Of a DNA stretch of 21,704 bases, positions 1 through 19,040 are shown piece by piece. Positions within the stretch are counted from its first letter, which is position 1, and every line of letters begins with the position of its first letter. The stretch is taken from assembly GCA_902796875.1 (NCBI GenBank), contig CADBQT010000056.1, positions 1 to 21,704 on the forward strand. Direction: 5' to 3'. The translations under genes were made by a program, and so were the position numbers. The DNA comes from an uncultured Eubacteriales bacterium. Its GTDB lineage: Bacteria; Bacillota; Clostridia; Peptostreptococcales; Anaerovoracaceae. The notes beneath the pieces were generated by a model, which was given only the letters and a program-made list of their open reading frames with translations, ran no database searches and was not told where the DNA came from.

Positions 1-486
1 GAGATCGTGGAGAGCCGGTACGGCGTAGAGGAAGTGGCCGGGTACCGGATCATCCGCCAGATGTCCAAAGACAGGAATGCCCTGGGTTCCTCCCGGGCCT
101 TCGATTACGTTTCCCATCTCCCCGGAGAGAAGGAACTGATCCTGATGATGAACAACCTGAGCGACGCCGCAGAGTGGTCGGAGAACACCTGCTGGCTCTA
201 CGACTGTGATTTCGAGTTTCTCCGGCAGGACAACATCCGGAACATCATCGTCACCGGGCCAAGAGCCAGGGACTATCACCTCCGCCTGAAGATGGCGGGG
301 ATCGACGACGACCGGATCTCCTTCGTCCACGACGAGATCGATTCCCCCGGGGCCCTGCGCCTGTATCCGGGTGAGGACATCTACGTGCTCTACGGCACCG
401 ACTCCATCGAACTGGCGGACAAGGTGGCGGCCAAGGTGAAAGAGAAGATCCAGGCGAAGGCCGGAGAGGGGAGGAAGCAGTCATGA
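1..486 (+). CDS. murT: MurT-like Mur ligase, C-terminal fragment (5' end outside window)
   Basis: This is the last 161 codons of a gene that starts upstream of the window. The frame is open from base 1, so the GTG at 7 need not be a start. It resembles the C-terminal domain of MurT (DUF1727), the Mur-ligase-like subunit that works with GatD to amidate the D-isoglutamate of lipid II in Gram-positives. Support comes from the segment WLYDCDFEFL, corresponding to the family's SWxWDxDFE, and from TGPRARDYHLRLKMAG, corresponding to the family's SGxRAxDMALRLKYAG. The Asp-rich stretch just before the WLYD segment (family DNxxDGxD) reads NNLSDAAEWSEN here and is clearly divergent. The final YTA-type motif is also altered to YGTDS. 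The stop overlaps the next start in ATGA (483-486), so the two genes are translationally coupled. Family assignment is good; enzymatic activity is uncertain. Confidence 0.8.
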   Translation, partial: EIVESRYGVEEVAGYRIIRQMSKDRNALGSSRAFDYVSHLPGEKELILMMNNLSDAAEWSENTCWLYDCDFEFLRQDNIRNIIVTGPRARDYHLRLKMAGIDDDRISFVHDEIDSPGALRLYPGEDIYVLYGTDSIELADKVAAKVKEKIQAKAGEGRKQS

Positions 487-1253
487 AGATCGAAGTACTG
501 TATCCGGAGATCTGCAACCTCTACGGAGATCTGGCCAACATCCGATATCTGAAGGAATGCCTGGCCCAGGCGGAGGTGATCGAAACCACCCTCCAGACCC
601 GACCCCGTTTTCTCGAAGAGGAGATGGATCTGGTCTACATGGGCTCCACCACGGAGAACGGCCAGCGGCTGGCCCTGGATCAGCTGCGGTTCTTCCGGGA
701 GGAGATCCTGGCCGCCGTGGAAAAAGGCCAGAAATTCCTCATCACCGGAAACGCCATGGAAATCTTCGGTGATCGGATCGAAGAGGACGGGGAGATGGTC
801 CTTCGGGGACTGGGCGTTTTCCCCGGCGTGGCGAAACGGTCCTCCATCAACCGGTTCAACAGCCTGTTTCTGGGTGACTTCACTCCGGAGGCGGCAGAGC
901 CCATTCGAGTGGCCGGATTCAAGAGTCAGTTCGGTCATACCTTCTGCGATGAAGGGGATCAGGGACTGGATGATCAGGCCCTCTTTACCGCCGTCCGGGG
1001 ACCGGGAATGAATCGTTATGCAAAAGGTGAGGGGATCCATAGGAATAATTTCCTGGCCACTTACGTCATCGGACCCCTGCTCATCCTCAACCCGCCCTTC
1101 ACCCGGTGGTTCATCGAAGAGTTCCTGGGAGAAGAGACTGCACACCTGGCCTACGAGAAAGAAGCCTTGGCGTCCTATGAGGCGAGGGTGAAAGAATATG
1201 CAGACCCGAACACGGGACTCTACTACTGGGGAGGGACCACGGAGCGGTGGTAG
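483..1253 (+). CDS. GatD-like class I glutamine amidotransferase, catalytic residues replaced
   Basis: The 256-residue protein follows MurT with an ATGA overlap, and its length and fold match GatD, the CobB/CobQ-type glutaminase that feeds ammonia to MurT. N-terminal YPEICNLYGDLANI (residues 7-20) matches GatD's NLYSDIGNI region. The catalytic parts do not match. The nucleophile elbow, ICGGYQFLG in S. aureus GatD, reads ITGNAMEIFG (87-96), so the Cys position is Thr88. The glutamine-binding segment GFENHGGRT reads GFKSQFGHT (145-153), with His152 in place of Arg. The catalytic-His segment GTYLHGPIL reads ATYVIGPLL (192-200), with Ile196 in place of His. The scaffold around each motif is intact and the frame is uninterrupted, which suggests a retained non-glutaminase role rather than decay. 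Partner function is inferred from context only. The comparison residues are recalled from the S. aureus enzyme. Confidence 0.8.
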   Translation: MKIEVLYPEICNLYGDLANIRYLKECLAQAEVIETTLQTRPRFLEEEMDLVYMGSTTENGQRLALDQLRFFREEILAAVEKGQKFLITGNAMEIFGDRIEEDGEMVLRGLGVFPGVAKRSSINRFNSLFLGDFTPEAAEPIRVAGFKSQFGHTFCDEGDQGLDDQALFTAVRGPGMNRYAKGEGIHRNNFLATYVIGPLLILNPPFTRWFIEEFLGEETAHLAYEKEALASYEARVKEYADPNTGLYYWGGTTERW

Positions 1254-1370: not shown

Positions 1371-1661
1371 TTATTCACTGGTGTCTGCTTCCTCTGCCGC
1401 CTTTTGGGCCAGTACTTTCTCGTATTCCTCCAGGATAGCATCTCTGATTTTGTTCCTGGTCTCGGAGACCAGGGGATGAGCGATGTCGCGAAAATCGCCT
1501 TCACTCATCTTTCTGCTCGGCATAGCGATGAATGGACCGTTCTGACCTTCGATGATCTTGATGTCATGAACGACGAATTCATCATCGAAGGTAATCGATA
1601 CGATGGCTTTCATTTTGCCTTCATCGCTTACCTTGCGGATCCTTACGTCTGTAATGTCCAT
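1371..1661 (-). CDS. spoVG: Septation regulator SpoVG
   Basis: This 96-residue protein has the usual SpoVG length and signature: [11 protein letters not shown] at the start, [21 protein letters not shown] (positions 19-39), then FIAMPSRKM and a segment of the form [14 protein letters not shown]. SpoVG is a small nucleic-acid-binding regulator that affects septation, sporulation and surface properties in Bacillota. The C-terminal tail after about residue 84 is charged and variable, as in other members. The start at 1661 is supported by an upstream AAAGGCGG (complement of 1671-1678) at good spacing and a strong promoter farther upstream. In Bacillus, spoVG lies directly upstream of glmU in the same orientation. 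Here it points away from murC and is separated from the acetyltransferase gene by murC. Confidence 0.96.
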
Positions 1662-1805: not shown

Positions 1806-3194
1806 ATGATCAATCTTTCAGAATACAAAAGGATCCACTGCATCGGCATTGGCGGTATTGGATTGTCCGGAATTGCAGAGATCCTGCTTTCCCGTGGATA
1901 CGAAGTATCCGGTTCTGATATGAGGGAGAGCGATATAACCGAGAAACTGATCGGCGACGGGGCGAATATTTACCTGGGCCACCGGGGAAAGAACGTGGAA
2001 GGCGCCGATCTTGTCATCTACACCGTGGCAGTGGGAGACGATAATCCGGAACTTGTCCGGGCCGCCGAACTGGGGATCCCCGCGGTCACCCGGGCGCAGG
2101 CCCTGGGCGCGCTGATGGCGGAGTACGAAAACAGCATAGCCATCTCCGGTACCCACGGCAAGACCACCACCACGGCCATGATCTCCCTGATCCTCAAAGG
2201 AGCGGGGAAGGAGCCGACGATCTCCGTAGGCGGAAACCTGGATGAGATCGGCGGCAATTTTTACGTCGGCGACAAGGACTACTTCGTCACCGAGGCCTGT
2301 GAATACCGGGACAGCTTCCTGCAGCTCAGGCCCACCATCGAGATCATCCTGAACATCGATTCCGACCACCTGGACTACTTCAAGGACGTGGATCACATCG
2401 CCCGGTCCTTCGAGCGGTTCGCCCGCCAGGTCCCCGAGGACGGGACGGTGATCGCCTATGACGCCAACCCATTCGTGCAGAGCGTCATCGAGGGACTGCC
2501 CAACGTGGTCACCTTTGGCTTCAGCTCACGAAGCGACTTTTATGCCACCAACATCGTATTCGACAGCGAGGGGATGCCTTCCTTCGACGTTCACCACGGG
2601 GGCAAGACCCTGTGCCGCATCGAACTGTCCGTTCCGGGAGAGCACAATATCTTAAACGCCCTGGCTGCCTTTGCATGCTGCCACCTGCTGGGCATCGAAA
2701 ACGAAGCGATCGTCGATACCCTCCGGGAGTACAAGGGGATCCACCGGCGCTTCGACGTGCTGGGAAGGACCAGCGACAACGTGAAGATCATCGACGACTA
2801 CGCCCACCATCCCACGGAGATCAAGGCGACCCTGTCCGCCGTGCGGAACATGAAGCACAATCATCTGTGGTGCCTGTTCCAGCCCCATACCTATACCCGC
2901 ACCCTGGCCCTGCTGGAGGAATTCTCCCAGGCCTTCACGGAAGCGGATAAGGTGGTGCTGGCGGAGATCTACGCGGCCAGAGAAAAGAACATCTATAAGA
3001 TCAGCTCCAAGACGCTGATGAACAAGATCCGGGAGTACGACCCGGAGGCGGACGTCTTCTACTTCAAGGGATTCGAGGACATCGCCAAATTCGTCTACGA
3101 CAATGCGGAAGAAGGGGATCTGATCCTGACCATGGGCGCAGGAGACATCTACCGGGTCGGAGAGATGATCCTGGAACTGGATCGAAAATTCTAA
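1806..3194 (+). CDS. murC: UDP-N-acetylmuramate--L-alanine ligase MurC
   Basis: MurC is a cytoplasmic enzyme that joins L-alanine to UDP-MurNAc using ATP, the first step of the peptidoglycan stem peptide. The 462-residue protein has the usual family length. The N-terminal UDP-binding Rossmann motif is GIGGIGLSG (14-22). The ATP loop is GTHGKTTT (115-122). The central domain has TEACEYRDSFL and NIDSDHLDYF, and the C-terminal domain has DDYAHHPTEIKATL and FQPHTYTRT. Start 1806 is preceded by AGGAGG with 11 bases spacing. It opens the murC-to-dapB operon, and the next gene begins 24 bases after its stop. Nothing unusual is seen in the protein. Confidence 0.97.
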   Translation: MINLSEYKRIHCIGIGGIGLSGIAEILLSRGYEVSGSDMRESDITEKLIGDGANIYLGHRGKNVEGADLVIYTVAVGDDNPELVRAAELGIPAVTRAQALGALMAEYENSIAISGTHGKTTTTAMISLILKGAGKEPTISVGGNLDEIGGNFYVGDKDYFVTEACEYRDSFLQLRPTIEIILNIDSDHLDYFKDVDHIARSFERFARQVPEDGTVIAYDANPFVQSVIEGLPNVVTFGFSSRSDFYATNIVFDSEGMPSFDVHHGGKTLCRIELSVPGEHNILNALAAFACCHLLGIENEAIVDTLREYKGIHRRFDVLGRTSDNVKIIDDYAHHPTEIKATLSAVRNMKHNHLWCLFQPHTYTRTLALLEEFSQAFTEADKVVLAEIYAAREKNIYKISSKTLMNKIREYDPEADVFYFKGFEDIAKFVYDNAEEGDLILTMGAGDIYRVGEMILELDRKF

Positions 3195-3218: not shown

Positions 3219-3917
3219 ATGAGTCTGAGACAATACGAAGCGGAAGAGAAGAAGAGGATCAAGAGAAATCTTGCCTACGAGGAGAGGGGCGTCCGGTTCA
3301 TGGACCTTCGCACGGCGTACATCGACGAGACGGCGCGGATCGGTCAGGGAACGGTCATCTACCCCAACGTGATCCTGGAAGGAGACGTGACCATCGGAGA
3401 GGACTGCACCATCGGGCCCAACACCCGGATCGTGGATTCGGAGGTCGGCAACGGCACGGTGATCCAGTATTCGGTGATCACCGAGAGCAAGGTGGGCAGC
3501 GAGACCAAAGTGGGGCCCTTCGCATACCTCCGTCCGGGAAGCACCATCGGCGACGGATGCAAGGTGGGCGACTTCGTGGAGGTGAAGAACTCCTCCATGG
3601 GTGACGGGGCCAAGGCCTCCCATCTGACGTATATCGGAGATTCCGACGTGGGCAGGGACGTGAACCTGGGCTGCGGCGTGGTCTTCGTCAACTACGACGG
3701 CACATCCAAGCATCGGTGCGTGGTGGAGGACGGTGCCTTCATCGGCTGCAACTCCAACCTCATCGCCCCGGTCCACGTGGGTGAGAAGTCCTACGTGGCG
3801 GCGGGAAGCACCATCACCGAAGACGTGCCCGACGGGGCCCTGTACATCGCCAGAGCCAGGGGGAAGGCTCTTCTGGACTGGGTCAGCCGCAAAGGCATTC
3901 TGAAAAAGAAAAAATAA
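3219..3917 (+). CDS. glmU: Stand-alone GlmU-type acetyltransferase (left-handed beta-helix), no uridyltransferase domain
   Basis: The 232-residue protein aligns with only the linker and C-terminal half of GlmU, which acetylates glucosamine-1-phosphate with acetyl-CoA. It begins in the linker helix (YEAEEKKRIKRNLAYEERGV), continues with hexapeptide repeats such as IGEDCTIGPNTRI, and keeps the acetyltransferase active-site residues: Arg105 in YLRPGS, Lys123 in FVEVKN, His135 and Tyr138 in KASHLTYIGD, Asn149, NYDG (158-161) and Lys164. The N-terminal pyrophosphorylase half (about 230 residues in bifunctional GlmU) is absent, and only 24 bases separate this gene from murC, so it is not a missed upstream exon or frameshift here. 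The GAGAGGA at 3201-3207 supports the start, and Met28 at 3300 is a less likely alternative. It sits immediately before prs as glmU does in Bacillus. Function is probably GlcN-1-P acetylation with uridylation done elsewhere. Confidence 0.88.
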   Translation: MSLRQYEAEEKKRIKRNLAYEERGVRFMDLRTAYIDETARIGQGTVIYPNVILEGDVTIGEDCTIGPNTRIVDSEVGNGTVIQYSVITESKVGSETKVGPFAYLRPGSTIGDGCKVGDFVEVKNSSMGDGAKASHLTYIGDSDVGRDVNLGCGVVFVNYDGTSKHRCVVEDGAFIGCNSNLIAPVHVGEKSYVAAGSTITEDVPDGALYIARARGKALLDWVSRKGILKKKK

Positions 3918-17424: not shown

Positions 17425-17448
17425 GGGCGGTGGAAACACCGCCCTTTT
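17425..17448 (+). terminator. Intrinsic terminator after the P-loop gene
   Basis: GGGCGGTG (17425-17432) and CACCGCCC (17437-17444) pair perfectly around a GAAA tetraloop, followed by TTTT (17445-17448). It ends only five bases before the preferred ATG of the next gene. A self-complementary TAACGTTA lies upstream at 17410-17417. Confidence 0.85.
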
Positions 17449-17453
17449 GTACA

Positions 17454-19040
17454 ATGAAGATCGTTTATGTTTATGTTCTGATCACGGCATTCCTCTTCGG
17501 ATCCATGGAGGTGGCCTGCAAGATCGGGGGCACGGAGTTCGATGAACTCCAGCTCACTTTTCTCCGGTTCGCCATCGGAGGACTGGTCCTGCTGCCTTTT
17601 GCCCTGCGGGAAGTGAAGCAGAGAAGTTACCGACTGAGCCTGAAAGACATCCTTCAGCTGGCGGCGGTGGGCACCCTGGGGATCCCGGTGAGCATGGTGA
17701 TGTTCCAGCTGTCCATCATGGCCTCCAACGCTTCCACGGTGGCGGTCCTGATCTGCACCAGCCCATTCTTTACCATGGTCTTCGCCCATCTGTTCACCGA
17801 GGAGAAACTGACCCGCCATAAACTGATCGTCCTGGCCATCGCTCTGGCCGGGATCTTCTTCATGTTCCGTCCCTGGGACATCCAGGAGGGAAACACCATC
17901 TACGGCATGGTCCTCATGCTTCTGGCGGCCCTGTTCTTCGGGGCCTACACCATCGCCGGGAAAGTGTGCGTCAAACGGATGGGACTCATGGCCCAGACCA
18001 GCTTCAGTTTTCTGCTGGGGTCCTTTGTGCTTTTGCTCATCATCCTCATCACCGGACGGCCGGTGGTGGCCGGGGTGGTCGAGCACCTGCCCATCGTCCT
18101 CTACGTGGGCGTCTTTGTCACCGGGGTGGGCTACTACTGTTACTTCAAAGCCATCGAAATGTCCGATGCGGCCACGGGCTCCTTTGCCTTTTTCCTGAAG
18201 CCGGCCATCGCGCCGGTGCTGGCCGCCATCTTCCTTCACGAGACCATCCTGTGGAACACCTACGTGGGGATCGCCCTGATCCTCTGCGCCTCCCTTTTGA
18301 ACATCCTTCATCAGAAGGAGGCGGCCCATCAGCAGAGGGTGGAGGATCTTCGCAGGTCGGGAGGAGATCAGATCCGGAAGGCCCTGACCATGGACGATCC
18401 GATCCCGGAAAACGACTTCCGTCACTACTCGGTCCTGATCCCCCTCATCGAAGGGGAGGAGGGCATCCGTGTCCTCTACGAAGTCCGGGCGGCGGATCTG
18501 GACCGGCAGCCGGGAGAGATCTGTTTCCCGGGAGGCCAGGTGGAGCCTGGGGAGACCTACGGGGAATGCGCCCTGCGGGAGACGGAGGAGGAGATCGGCA
18601 TCCCACGGGAAAAGATCGAACTGCTGGACGAGCTGACCGTCATCTACGGTGTGGGGCGGTTTGCCATGCATTGCTTCCCCGGGATGATCGCCAGGGAAAC
18701 GGCGGACAAAATGAACATCAGCCGGGACGAGGTGGGGGAGGTCTTCACCGTCGCCCTGGAGGACCTGATGAATACGGAGCCGGAGATCTACCGGGCCGAA
18801 CTGATCCAAAAAGGACCGGAGGACTTCCCCTACGAGAAGATCACGGGAGAATCCTCTTATGACTGGAGCCGCCTGACTTCACCCGTGCCGGTCTACGACG
18901 TGGACGGACGGATGATCTGGGGGCTGACGGGAAGAGCCACCAAAGTGCTGGTGGAAACGCTGAAGGAGAGAGGGGAGGGATCCCTCGAAGAGGGAACCGA
19001 CGGGTCCCCAGGAGATGAGAACAAGGAGGAAACGCGATGA
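17454..19040 (+). CDS. Fusion protein: EamA/DMT-family transporter + NUDIX hydrolase (NudL-like)
   Basis: A single open frame encodes about 528 residues. The first 290 or so are a drug/metabolite transporter with two EamA repeats and about ten hydrophobic helices, for example YVYVLITAFLFGS near the start and IVLAIALAGIFFMF. After a charged linker (about 287-325) comes a NUDIX domain. The NUDIX box runs from Gly361 to Ile383 with Glu367, Arg375-Glu376 and Glu379-Glu380. The preceding RQPGEICFPGG resembles the motif of NudL-type CoA pyrophosphatases. The C-terminal tail is acidic and low in complexity. I chose ATG 17454; an in-frame GTG at 17430 lies inside the terminator hairpin. No ribosome site precedes the ATG. 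The transporter's substrate is unknown. The stop overlaps the next start in ATGA (19037-19040). The fusion is seen directly; joint function is inference. Confidence 0.85.
   Translation: MKIVYVYVLITAFLFGSMEVACKIGGTEFDELQLTFLRFAIGGLVLLPFALREVKQRSYRLSLKDILQLAAVGTLGIPVSMVMFQLSIMASNASTVAVLICTSPFFTMVFAHLFTEEKLTRHKLIVLAIALAGIFFMFRPWDIQEGNTIYGMVLMLLAALFFGAYTIAGKVCVKRMGLMAQTSFSFLLGSFVLLLIILITGRPVVAGVVEHLPIVLYVGVFVTGVGYYCYFKAIEMSDAATGSFAFFLKPAIAPVLAAIFLHETILWNTYVGIALILCASLLNILHQKEAAHQQRVEDLRRSGGDQIRKALTMDDPIPENDFRHYSVLIPLIEGEEGIRVLYEVRAADLDRQPGEICFPGGQVEPGETYGECALRETEEEIGIPREKIELLDELTVIYGVGRFAMHCFPGMIARETADKMNISRDEVGEVFTVALEDLMNTEPEIYRAELIQKGPEDFPYEKITGESSYDWSRLTSPVPVYDVDGRMIWGLTGRATKVLVETLKERGEGSLEEGTDGSPGDENKEETR

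Follow-up and report, generated by a model that had tools for sequence, protein, structure and literature searches.

What can a MurT/GatD complex do once its glutaminase subunit has lost the catalytic residues? This question is raised by a stretch of 21,704 nucleotides, here called the window, from an uncultured Eubacteriales bacterium of the family Anaerovoracaceae (assembly GCA_902796875.1, contig CADBQT010000056.1). At its start, a murT-like and a gatD-like open reading frame are joined by a 4-base overlap (Table 1). A first-pass annotation had recognized the gatD-like frame, its similarity to GatD, and its overlap with the murT-like frame, and all of this was borne out. The GatD-like protein contains a CobB/CobQ-type domain (Pfam PF07685 GATase_3, 38.9 bits; cut-off 27) and matches the PDB entries 5n9m, 6gs2, 6fqb, and 9sq9. 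Its scores against two NCBIfam GatD models, 51.3 bits (cut-off 400) and 51.4 bits (cut-off 450), are below those of an equivalog.

The murT-like frame is cut by the start of the contig. Its N-terminal 299 residues were found on another contig of this genome, at the end of C196 (4,769 bases; locus L183), and the two pieces align to residues 1–300 and 304–456 of the 463-residue MurT of a relative (locus L069). This genome (G000; 1.39 Mb, 267 contigs, 91.6% complete) has a single match each to MurT_C and to the window GatD in profile and sequence searches. Directly upstream of murT on C196 lies an ATP-grasp gene (PF14397, 122.6 bits; cut-off 31.4). Elsewhere in the window, positions 3219–3917 encode a protein of hexapeptide repeats that is similar to GlmU in its acetyltransferase half and has no uridyltransferase half (Pfam Hexapep, 104 bits; Hexapep_GlmU, 23.2 bits, slightly below its cut-off), and positions 17430–19040 hold a single reading frame in which an EamA transporter is fused to a NUDIX domain.

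Residue numbering and site assignments were taken from an alignment to Staphylococcus aureus GatD, which is ungapped around the nucleophile (ITGNAMEIFG/ICGGYQFLG). The first-pass annotation had stated that all three key positions of the glutaminase are replaced: Cys by Thr88, the glutamine-binding Arg by His152, and the catalytic His by Ile196. The nucleophile is indeed lost, although the residue at its position is Gly89 rather than Thr88, and the replacement of the His by Ile196 was confirmed. The glutamine-binding Arg, however, is kept as Arg124, so that the claim of a threefold loss is wrong. His152 aligns instead with the Arg of the GGRT motif, a position that varies in canonical GatDs (the four commonest residues among 46 canonical rows are R, 29; K, 11; Q, 4; and M, 1). 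An additional loss is found in MurT, at Asp349.

Table 1. Genes and active-site features of the window (S. aureus numbering for canonical residues).
Feature	Position	Strand	Basis
murT-like gene, C-terminal third, truncated at contig start	1..486	+	PF08353 MurT_C, 85.7 bits
SKDRNALG loop, the canonical K-N-P loop extended by two residues	64..87	+	alignment
Asn at the MurT Asp349 position	184..186	+	alignment
gatD-like gene, class A putative pseudo-glutaminase subunit, 256 aa	483..1253	+	Pfam, NCBIfam, and PDB matches
Gly89 at the nucleophile Cys94 position	747..749	+	alignment
Arg124, retained counterpart of glutamine-binding Arg128, in NRFNSL	852..854	+	alignment
GFKSQFGHT replacing canonical GFENHxGxT; E147K, H149Q	915..941	+	class comparison
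Ile196 at the catalytic His189 position	1068..1070	+	alignment
spoVG, next gene (context)	1371..1661	-	PF04026
murC, UDP-MurNAc ligase (context)	1806..3194	+	named by eye from sequence

These substitutions fall on residues of recognized importance. S. aureus GatD carrying C94G is described as inactive in both 2018 papers (PMC6085368, PMC6113224). MurT Asp349 is put forward in one of them as the third member of the S. aureus triad, and the D349N variant is said to abolish catalysis completely in a figure legend and to reduce it severely in the text (PMC6113224). The Streptococcus pneumoniae paper places the third triad residue on a GatD acid, at S. aureus residue 19 (PMC6085368). This acid is retained in the window as Asp16, but on its own it would not be expected to rescue the glutaminase, because Cys and His are gone. 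An alternative Cys/His pair in the active site, considered in the first-pass annotation, is ruled out: no Cys or His is invariant across the rows of the window's class (class A, below), and no other conserved pair therefore fills the site. The window GatD thus lacks Cys94 and His189 and keeps the counterparts of Arg128 and the residue-19 acid. On the MurT side, the N-terminal half on C196 carries GTNGKT, NNQGSN, EIDER, CPRC, and CPECGF; the P-loop, the acceptor acids, and the zinc ribbon are present, and Asp349 is missing.

Relatives were collected at several levels. Of 349 Anaerovoracaceae genomes, 145 have a match to the window GatD, and MurT_C is present in 170; 60 wide loci were fetched, giving a first set of 71 GatD matches. 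At the class level, MurT_C was found in 212 of 391 genomes, of which 49 were examined; these are mostly low scorers, a part of all low scorers, and some have no readable pair. At the phylum level, 146 of 398 genomes, a set overlapping the class sample in part, match a profile of MurTs of the window's type, and 50 loci were read. Finally, 313 GTDB stretches matched; 274 of them encode a relative, and the analysis drew on the best 80. The constant pairing with MurT that the first-pass annotation had proposed to test for nearly holds: MurT lies immediately upstream in 68 of the 71 first-set matches, and the three exceptions are a GatD that adjoins MurT in another order (L056), a fragment, and one at a contig end. 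Likewise, 80 of the 85 GatDs in the GTDB loci have MurT in this position.

The losses in the two subunits co-occur, though imperfectly. Among 113 distinct pairs, all 11 with both Cys and His in GatD have Asp349 in MurT, and one has lost Cys alone (to Ser). The other 101 have neither Cys nor His and are here called dead; their MurT residue 349 is Asn (58), Thr (18), Glu (12), Asp (12), or Ser (1). Two counts weigh against our preferred reading, namely, the 12 dead pairs that keep Asp349 and the residue-19 acid, the other proposed triad member, which stays acidic (D or E) in 96 of the 99 rows of the clade described next.

A tree of 157 concatenated MurT/GatD pairs, from which the catalytic columns had been removed, contains a single split between 99 pairs, all without Cys and His, and 58 others, comprising 46 canonical pairs and 12 with independent Cys losses on several branches. 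The clade that the first-pass annotation had suggested looking for is thereby recovered. The split is supported at 1.0 by MurT alone, at 0.93 by GatD alone, and at 0.998 by both proteins after removal of all diagnostic columns. A two-residue insertion in the MurT K-N-P loop, present in 99/99 clade rows and 0/58 others, follows the same division. The window has no row of its own because its MurT is cut; its GatD and its MurT C-terminus carry the residues of class A.

Four classes with near-fixed residues make up most of the clade: A (36 rows), B (17), C (19), and D (19), with eight rows outside. MurT position 349 is N in A, T in B, N in C, and E or D in D. GatD residues 147–149 are mostly K-S-Q, R-S-Q, Q-I-Q, and V-N-K in A to D, respectively, compared with canonical E-N-H; E147 and H149 are found in 46/46 canonical rows, and K147 and Q149 in 34/36 and 28/36 rows of class A. 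Arg128 is V, I, or T in C and is retained in the other three classes, with one Lys in B. The MurT loop near the acceptor site has changed as well: canonical D137, Y/F139, and E141 are replaced, with N139 in 96/99 and H141 in 75/99 clade rows. Among the 12 Cys losses outside the clade, canonical D137, Y139, and E141 are kept in 8, 7, and 8, respectively. The ligase residues, by contrast, are retained in all classes with few single exceptions, and in 30 MurTs of the dead type the P-loop G, G, and K, N82/G85/N87, E114/D116/E117, the four zinc-binding Cys, and N278 are invariant. Values of dN/dS for gatD between the window and five relatives are 0.13–0.18, rough figures because dS exceeds 1, and those among the relatives (ten pairs) are 0.07–0.18. 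The gene is therefore not decaying, being under purifying selection next to a MurT that retains its ligase residues and zinc cysteines. Collectively, these observations establish, at the level of residues, a conserved and co-substituted MurT/GatD complex, predicted to be dead as a glutaminase and apparently intact as a ligase, which belongs to a large clade of such complexes in Clostridia.

Many members of the clade have an ATP-grasp neighbor. An ATP-grasp gene lies within 1.5 kb of 22/40 A-like, 16/18 B-like, and 2/16 D-like pairs, and of 0/18 class C, 0/8 canonical, and 0/2 further pairs; six GatDs (fragments or unpaired) were left out of this count, and several A-like misses, the window included, have no upstream sequence. 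In the GTDB loci, many from genomes shared with the other set, it accompanies 34 of 85 GatDs. Nine loci (L049–L052 and L055–L059; L056 in another order) contain two dead pairs, and six of them (L049, L050, L051, L055, L057, and L058) are arranged as MurT_B, GatD_B, ATP-grasp, MurT_A, GatD_A, L055 carrying an additional gene. By eye, glmM-like and in part glmS-like genes neighbor class C, and murC lies near class A. Two other neighborhoods were recorded: at L166:3865-6404, a dead GatD is followed by an asparagine synthase B-like amidotransferase, and at L171:5407-7165, a dead GatD (GKS, with the MurT Asp kept) overlaps a FemAB-family gene.

An ornithine racemase was also considered as a sign of a D-ornithine nucleophile and was rejected. 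Racemase-family matches occur in 19/20 class C and 16/16 class A genomes (the class of one of the latter, G067, being unread), compared with 3/20 canonical-scoring genomes (by score) and 1/8 of class D. A control within the window's family erased this signal, the matches being present in 9/12 genomes with canonical MurT (six read, six assigned by MurT_C score), 23/29 without MurT_C, and 15/15 with low-scoring MurT_C (by score). The sole remaining adjacency is at L153:5470-7291, where a class C GatD gene overlaps a racemase frame (NCBIfam Orr, 411 bits; cut-off 480).

The core idea of the first-pass annotation, that a GatD without glutaminase residues and with its MurT partner kept has taken on another role, stands. 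Three alternatives had been offered, namely, a structural subunit, a ligase using free ammonia, and a different modification of a wall precursor; the last fits best, GatD then being a subunit with a structural or binding role. We propose that the window encodes a MurT ligase whose GatD partner is a pseudo-glutaminase, and that the amine which this ligase attaches to the D-Glu of lipid II is not ammonia derived from glutamine and is probably an amino acid. To this reading we assign a probability of about one half; the activity (ATP binding included), the substrate, and the nucleophile are what we infer. By analogy with canonical MurT, the ligase would bind ATP and activate a carboxylate of a peptidoglycan precursor, most likely the D-Glu α-carboxyl on lipid II, as an acyl phosphate. 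GatD would make no ammonia and would serve as an obligatory structural subunit, perhaps also as the binding site for the incoming amine, since it retains the glutamine-binding Arg in an otherwise rebuilt pocket. If the amine is an amino acid, D-Glu would come to carry a branch or bridge, as it does in type B peptidoglycan, and the ATP-grasp protein encoded directly upstream would probably add a further amide bond to the same branch.

In type B walls, the bridge starts from the D-Glu α-carboxyl, and we know of no enzyme identified for building such cross-bridges. In searches of the open-licence PMC literature, neither a dead GatD nor a type B bridge ligase appears as a topic in the titles and abstract openings of the papers listed. 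It is a tentative extension of our reading, and one we hold to be less probable than its contrary, that the dead clade includes the ligases for the first amino acid of the type B bridge, or of a related branch, on the D-Glu α-carboxyl in Clostridia. GatD would then hold the amino acid, classes A–D would differ in which one is used, and the ATP-grasp protein would extend the bridge. Against our main reading, no ATP-grasp gene was found beside class C or beside 18 of the 40 A-like pairs, some of them without flanks.

The link to type B walls comes from class C. In L145, the class C GatD has the same sequence as a protein named for Acetobacterium woodii, whose one-contig genome has a single MurT_C match, paired with this dead GatD. 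All seven genomes of the A. woodii family among the 49 examined carry a dead class C pair; it is the only MurT found in A. woodii and five others, and the seventh, G675, also has a canonical pair. For the genus Eubacterium (Eubacteriaceae), to which relatives of A. woodii belong, Table 1 of a 2024 review lists B2α besides A1γ, A4α, and A4β (PMC11382707), and a genome paper gives Ala, Glu, Lys, Orn, and Ser for the wall of E. limosum (PMC4791908). Class A has the clade in common with class C, not the wall type; this and the A types listed for Eubacterium count against our main reading.

The main rival is an isoglutaminyl synthase fed by free ammonia, in which D-isoglutamine would still be made with ammonia from the ammonia-rich gut and GatD would be a scaffold. 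S. aureus MurT/GatD is reported to take ammonia at pH 8.5, with GatD still required (PMC6085368). Outside the dead clade, three GatDs in f113 (L192, L193, and L201) have independently lost Cys alone (to Gly) and keep Arg, His, and the MurT Asp; among named relatives, Syntrophaceticus and Thermacetogenium are closest to L193. Both genera live at high ammonia. Free ammonia suits these Cys-only losses better than the window's clade, for which it seems rather unlikely: a simple switch to ammonia needs no class-specific rebuilding of the loop at the MurT active site and of the pocket in GatD and no second dead pair in one locus, and the type B walls of the Eubacteriaceae would, from their chemistry, leave no free α-carboxyl for amidation. 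The relatives of L193 also led us to drop the GRH GatDs, at first suspected to come from Erysipelotrichaceae, as a second type B group. Two further observations concern pair architecture. In G349 (L175:486-3065, reverse strand, and L124), an 860-residue protein combines Mur_ligase_M, MurT_C, and GATase_3; in this natural fusion of MurT and GatD, Gly takes the place of Cys and His is retained. G963 (L212, L184) has a canonical pair and also a dead one (GKL, with His at MurT 349), which falls outside the main dead clade.

A different acceptor, that is, another wall-precursor carboxylate such as that of diaminopimelate or a non-wall molecule, we regard as quite improbable. Classes A and B coexist in single loci, so that at least one of them may act elsewhere, and the genes near classes A and C suggest wall synthesis. 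Against this, only one MurT_C is present in each of the six Anaerovoracaceae genomes whose canonical pair was read, as if the dead and the canonical kind excluded each other on one substrate; G675, with both, is a counterexample.

The amine could also be a diamine. In Selenomonas and Veillonella walls, cadaverine or putrescine is joined to the D-Glu α-carboxyl, that is, to the same acceptor position on a lipid-linked substrate, and such chemistry would suit MurT. Yet none of the pairs read was noticed to have a diamine-related gene as its direct neighbor (a decarboxylase lies one gene away in L164), and the kept Arg124 points to a carboxylate-bearing ligand; a diamine ligase is accordingly a poor prospect. 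A pseudogene or sequencing artefact, for which the contig break within murT might speak, is dismissed with near certainty: besides the purifying selection on gatD and the open other half of murT on C196, the read error that the first-pass annotation allowed for is contradicted by the recurrence of the same losses across class A (Gly in 35/36 rows and Ser in one; His absent in 36/36) and the best 80 GTDB loci, where 0/85 GatDs have the catalytic Cys or His (genomes partly the same as in the other set).

These proteins are named glutamine amidotransferase, cobyric acid synthase, CobQ, or lipid II isoglutaminyl synthase in the sources; for a large clade in Clostridia whose glutaminase is dead and whose ligase is kept, such an annotation is wrong. 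The clade leads us to predict, for bacteria of the rumen and gut, a modification of the wall that has yet to be described. Wall fragments act as immune signals there, and MurT/GatD is studied as a drug target. Named genes, such as those of A. woodii, are now available for the question of which enzyme builds the type B cross-bridge.

Compared with known systems, the window pair stands at some distance from each. In archaea, a MurT-like paralogue of MurT is described with or without canonical MurT in the genome, and for archaea with MurT-like only, no GatD is reported in the source (PMC11915815); the window's kind, in contrast, keeps a dead GatD. The ATP-grasp gene in the window's genome is a clear member of ATPgrasp_ST (PF14397), a family named after sugar-transfer clusters and here tied to MurT/GatD. 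The A. woodii 'type 1 glutamine amidotransferase' (P0121) and its MurT belong to the same 99-pair clade, with Cys and His lost and Asn at MurT 349, but differ from the window in that Arg is lost too (Val) and in their surroundings, which are glmM/glmS (by eye) with no ATP-grasp gene within 1.5 kb. With the lipid II isoglutaminyl synthase MurT/GatD of S. aureus (6gs2/6h5e) and S. pneumoniae (6fqb), the window shares the overlapping genes, the GATase_3 and MurT_C domains, the P-loop, the acceptor acids, the zinc ribbon, the glutamine-binding Arg, and the residue-19 acid. It departs from them in the replaced Cys94, His189, and MurT Asp349, the rebuilt GFENHxGxT, the altered MurT loop 137–141, the K-N-P loop longer by two residues, and an NCBIfam score of 51 against 400 bits.
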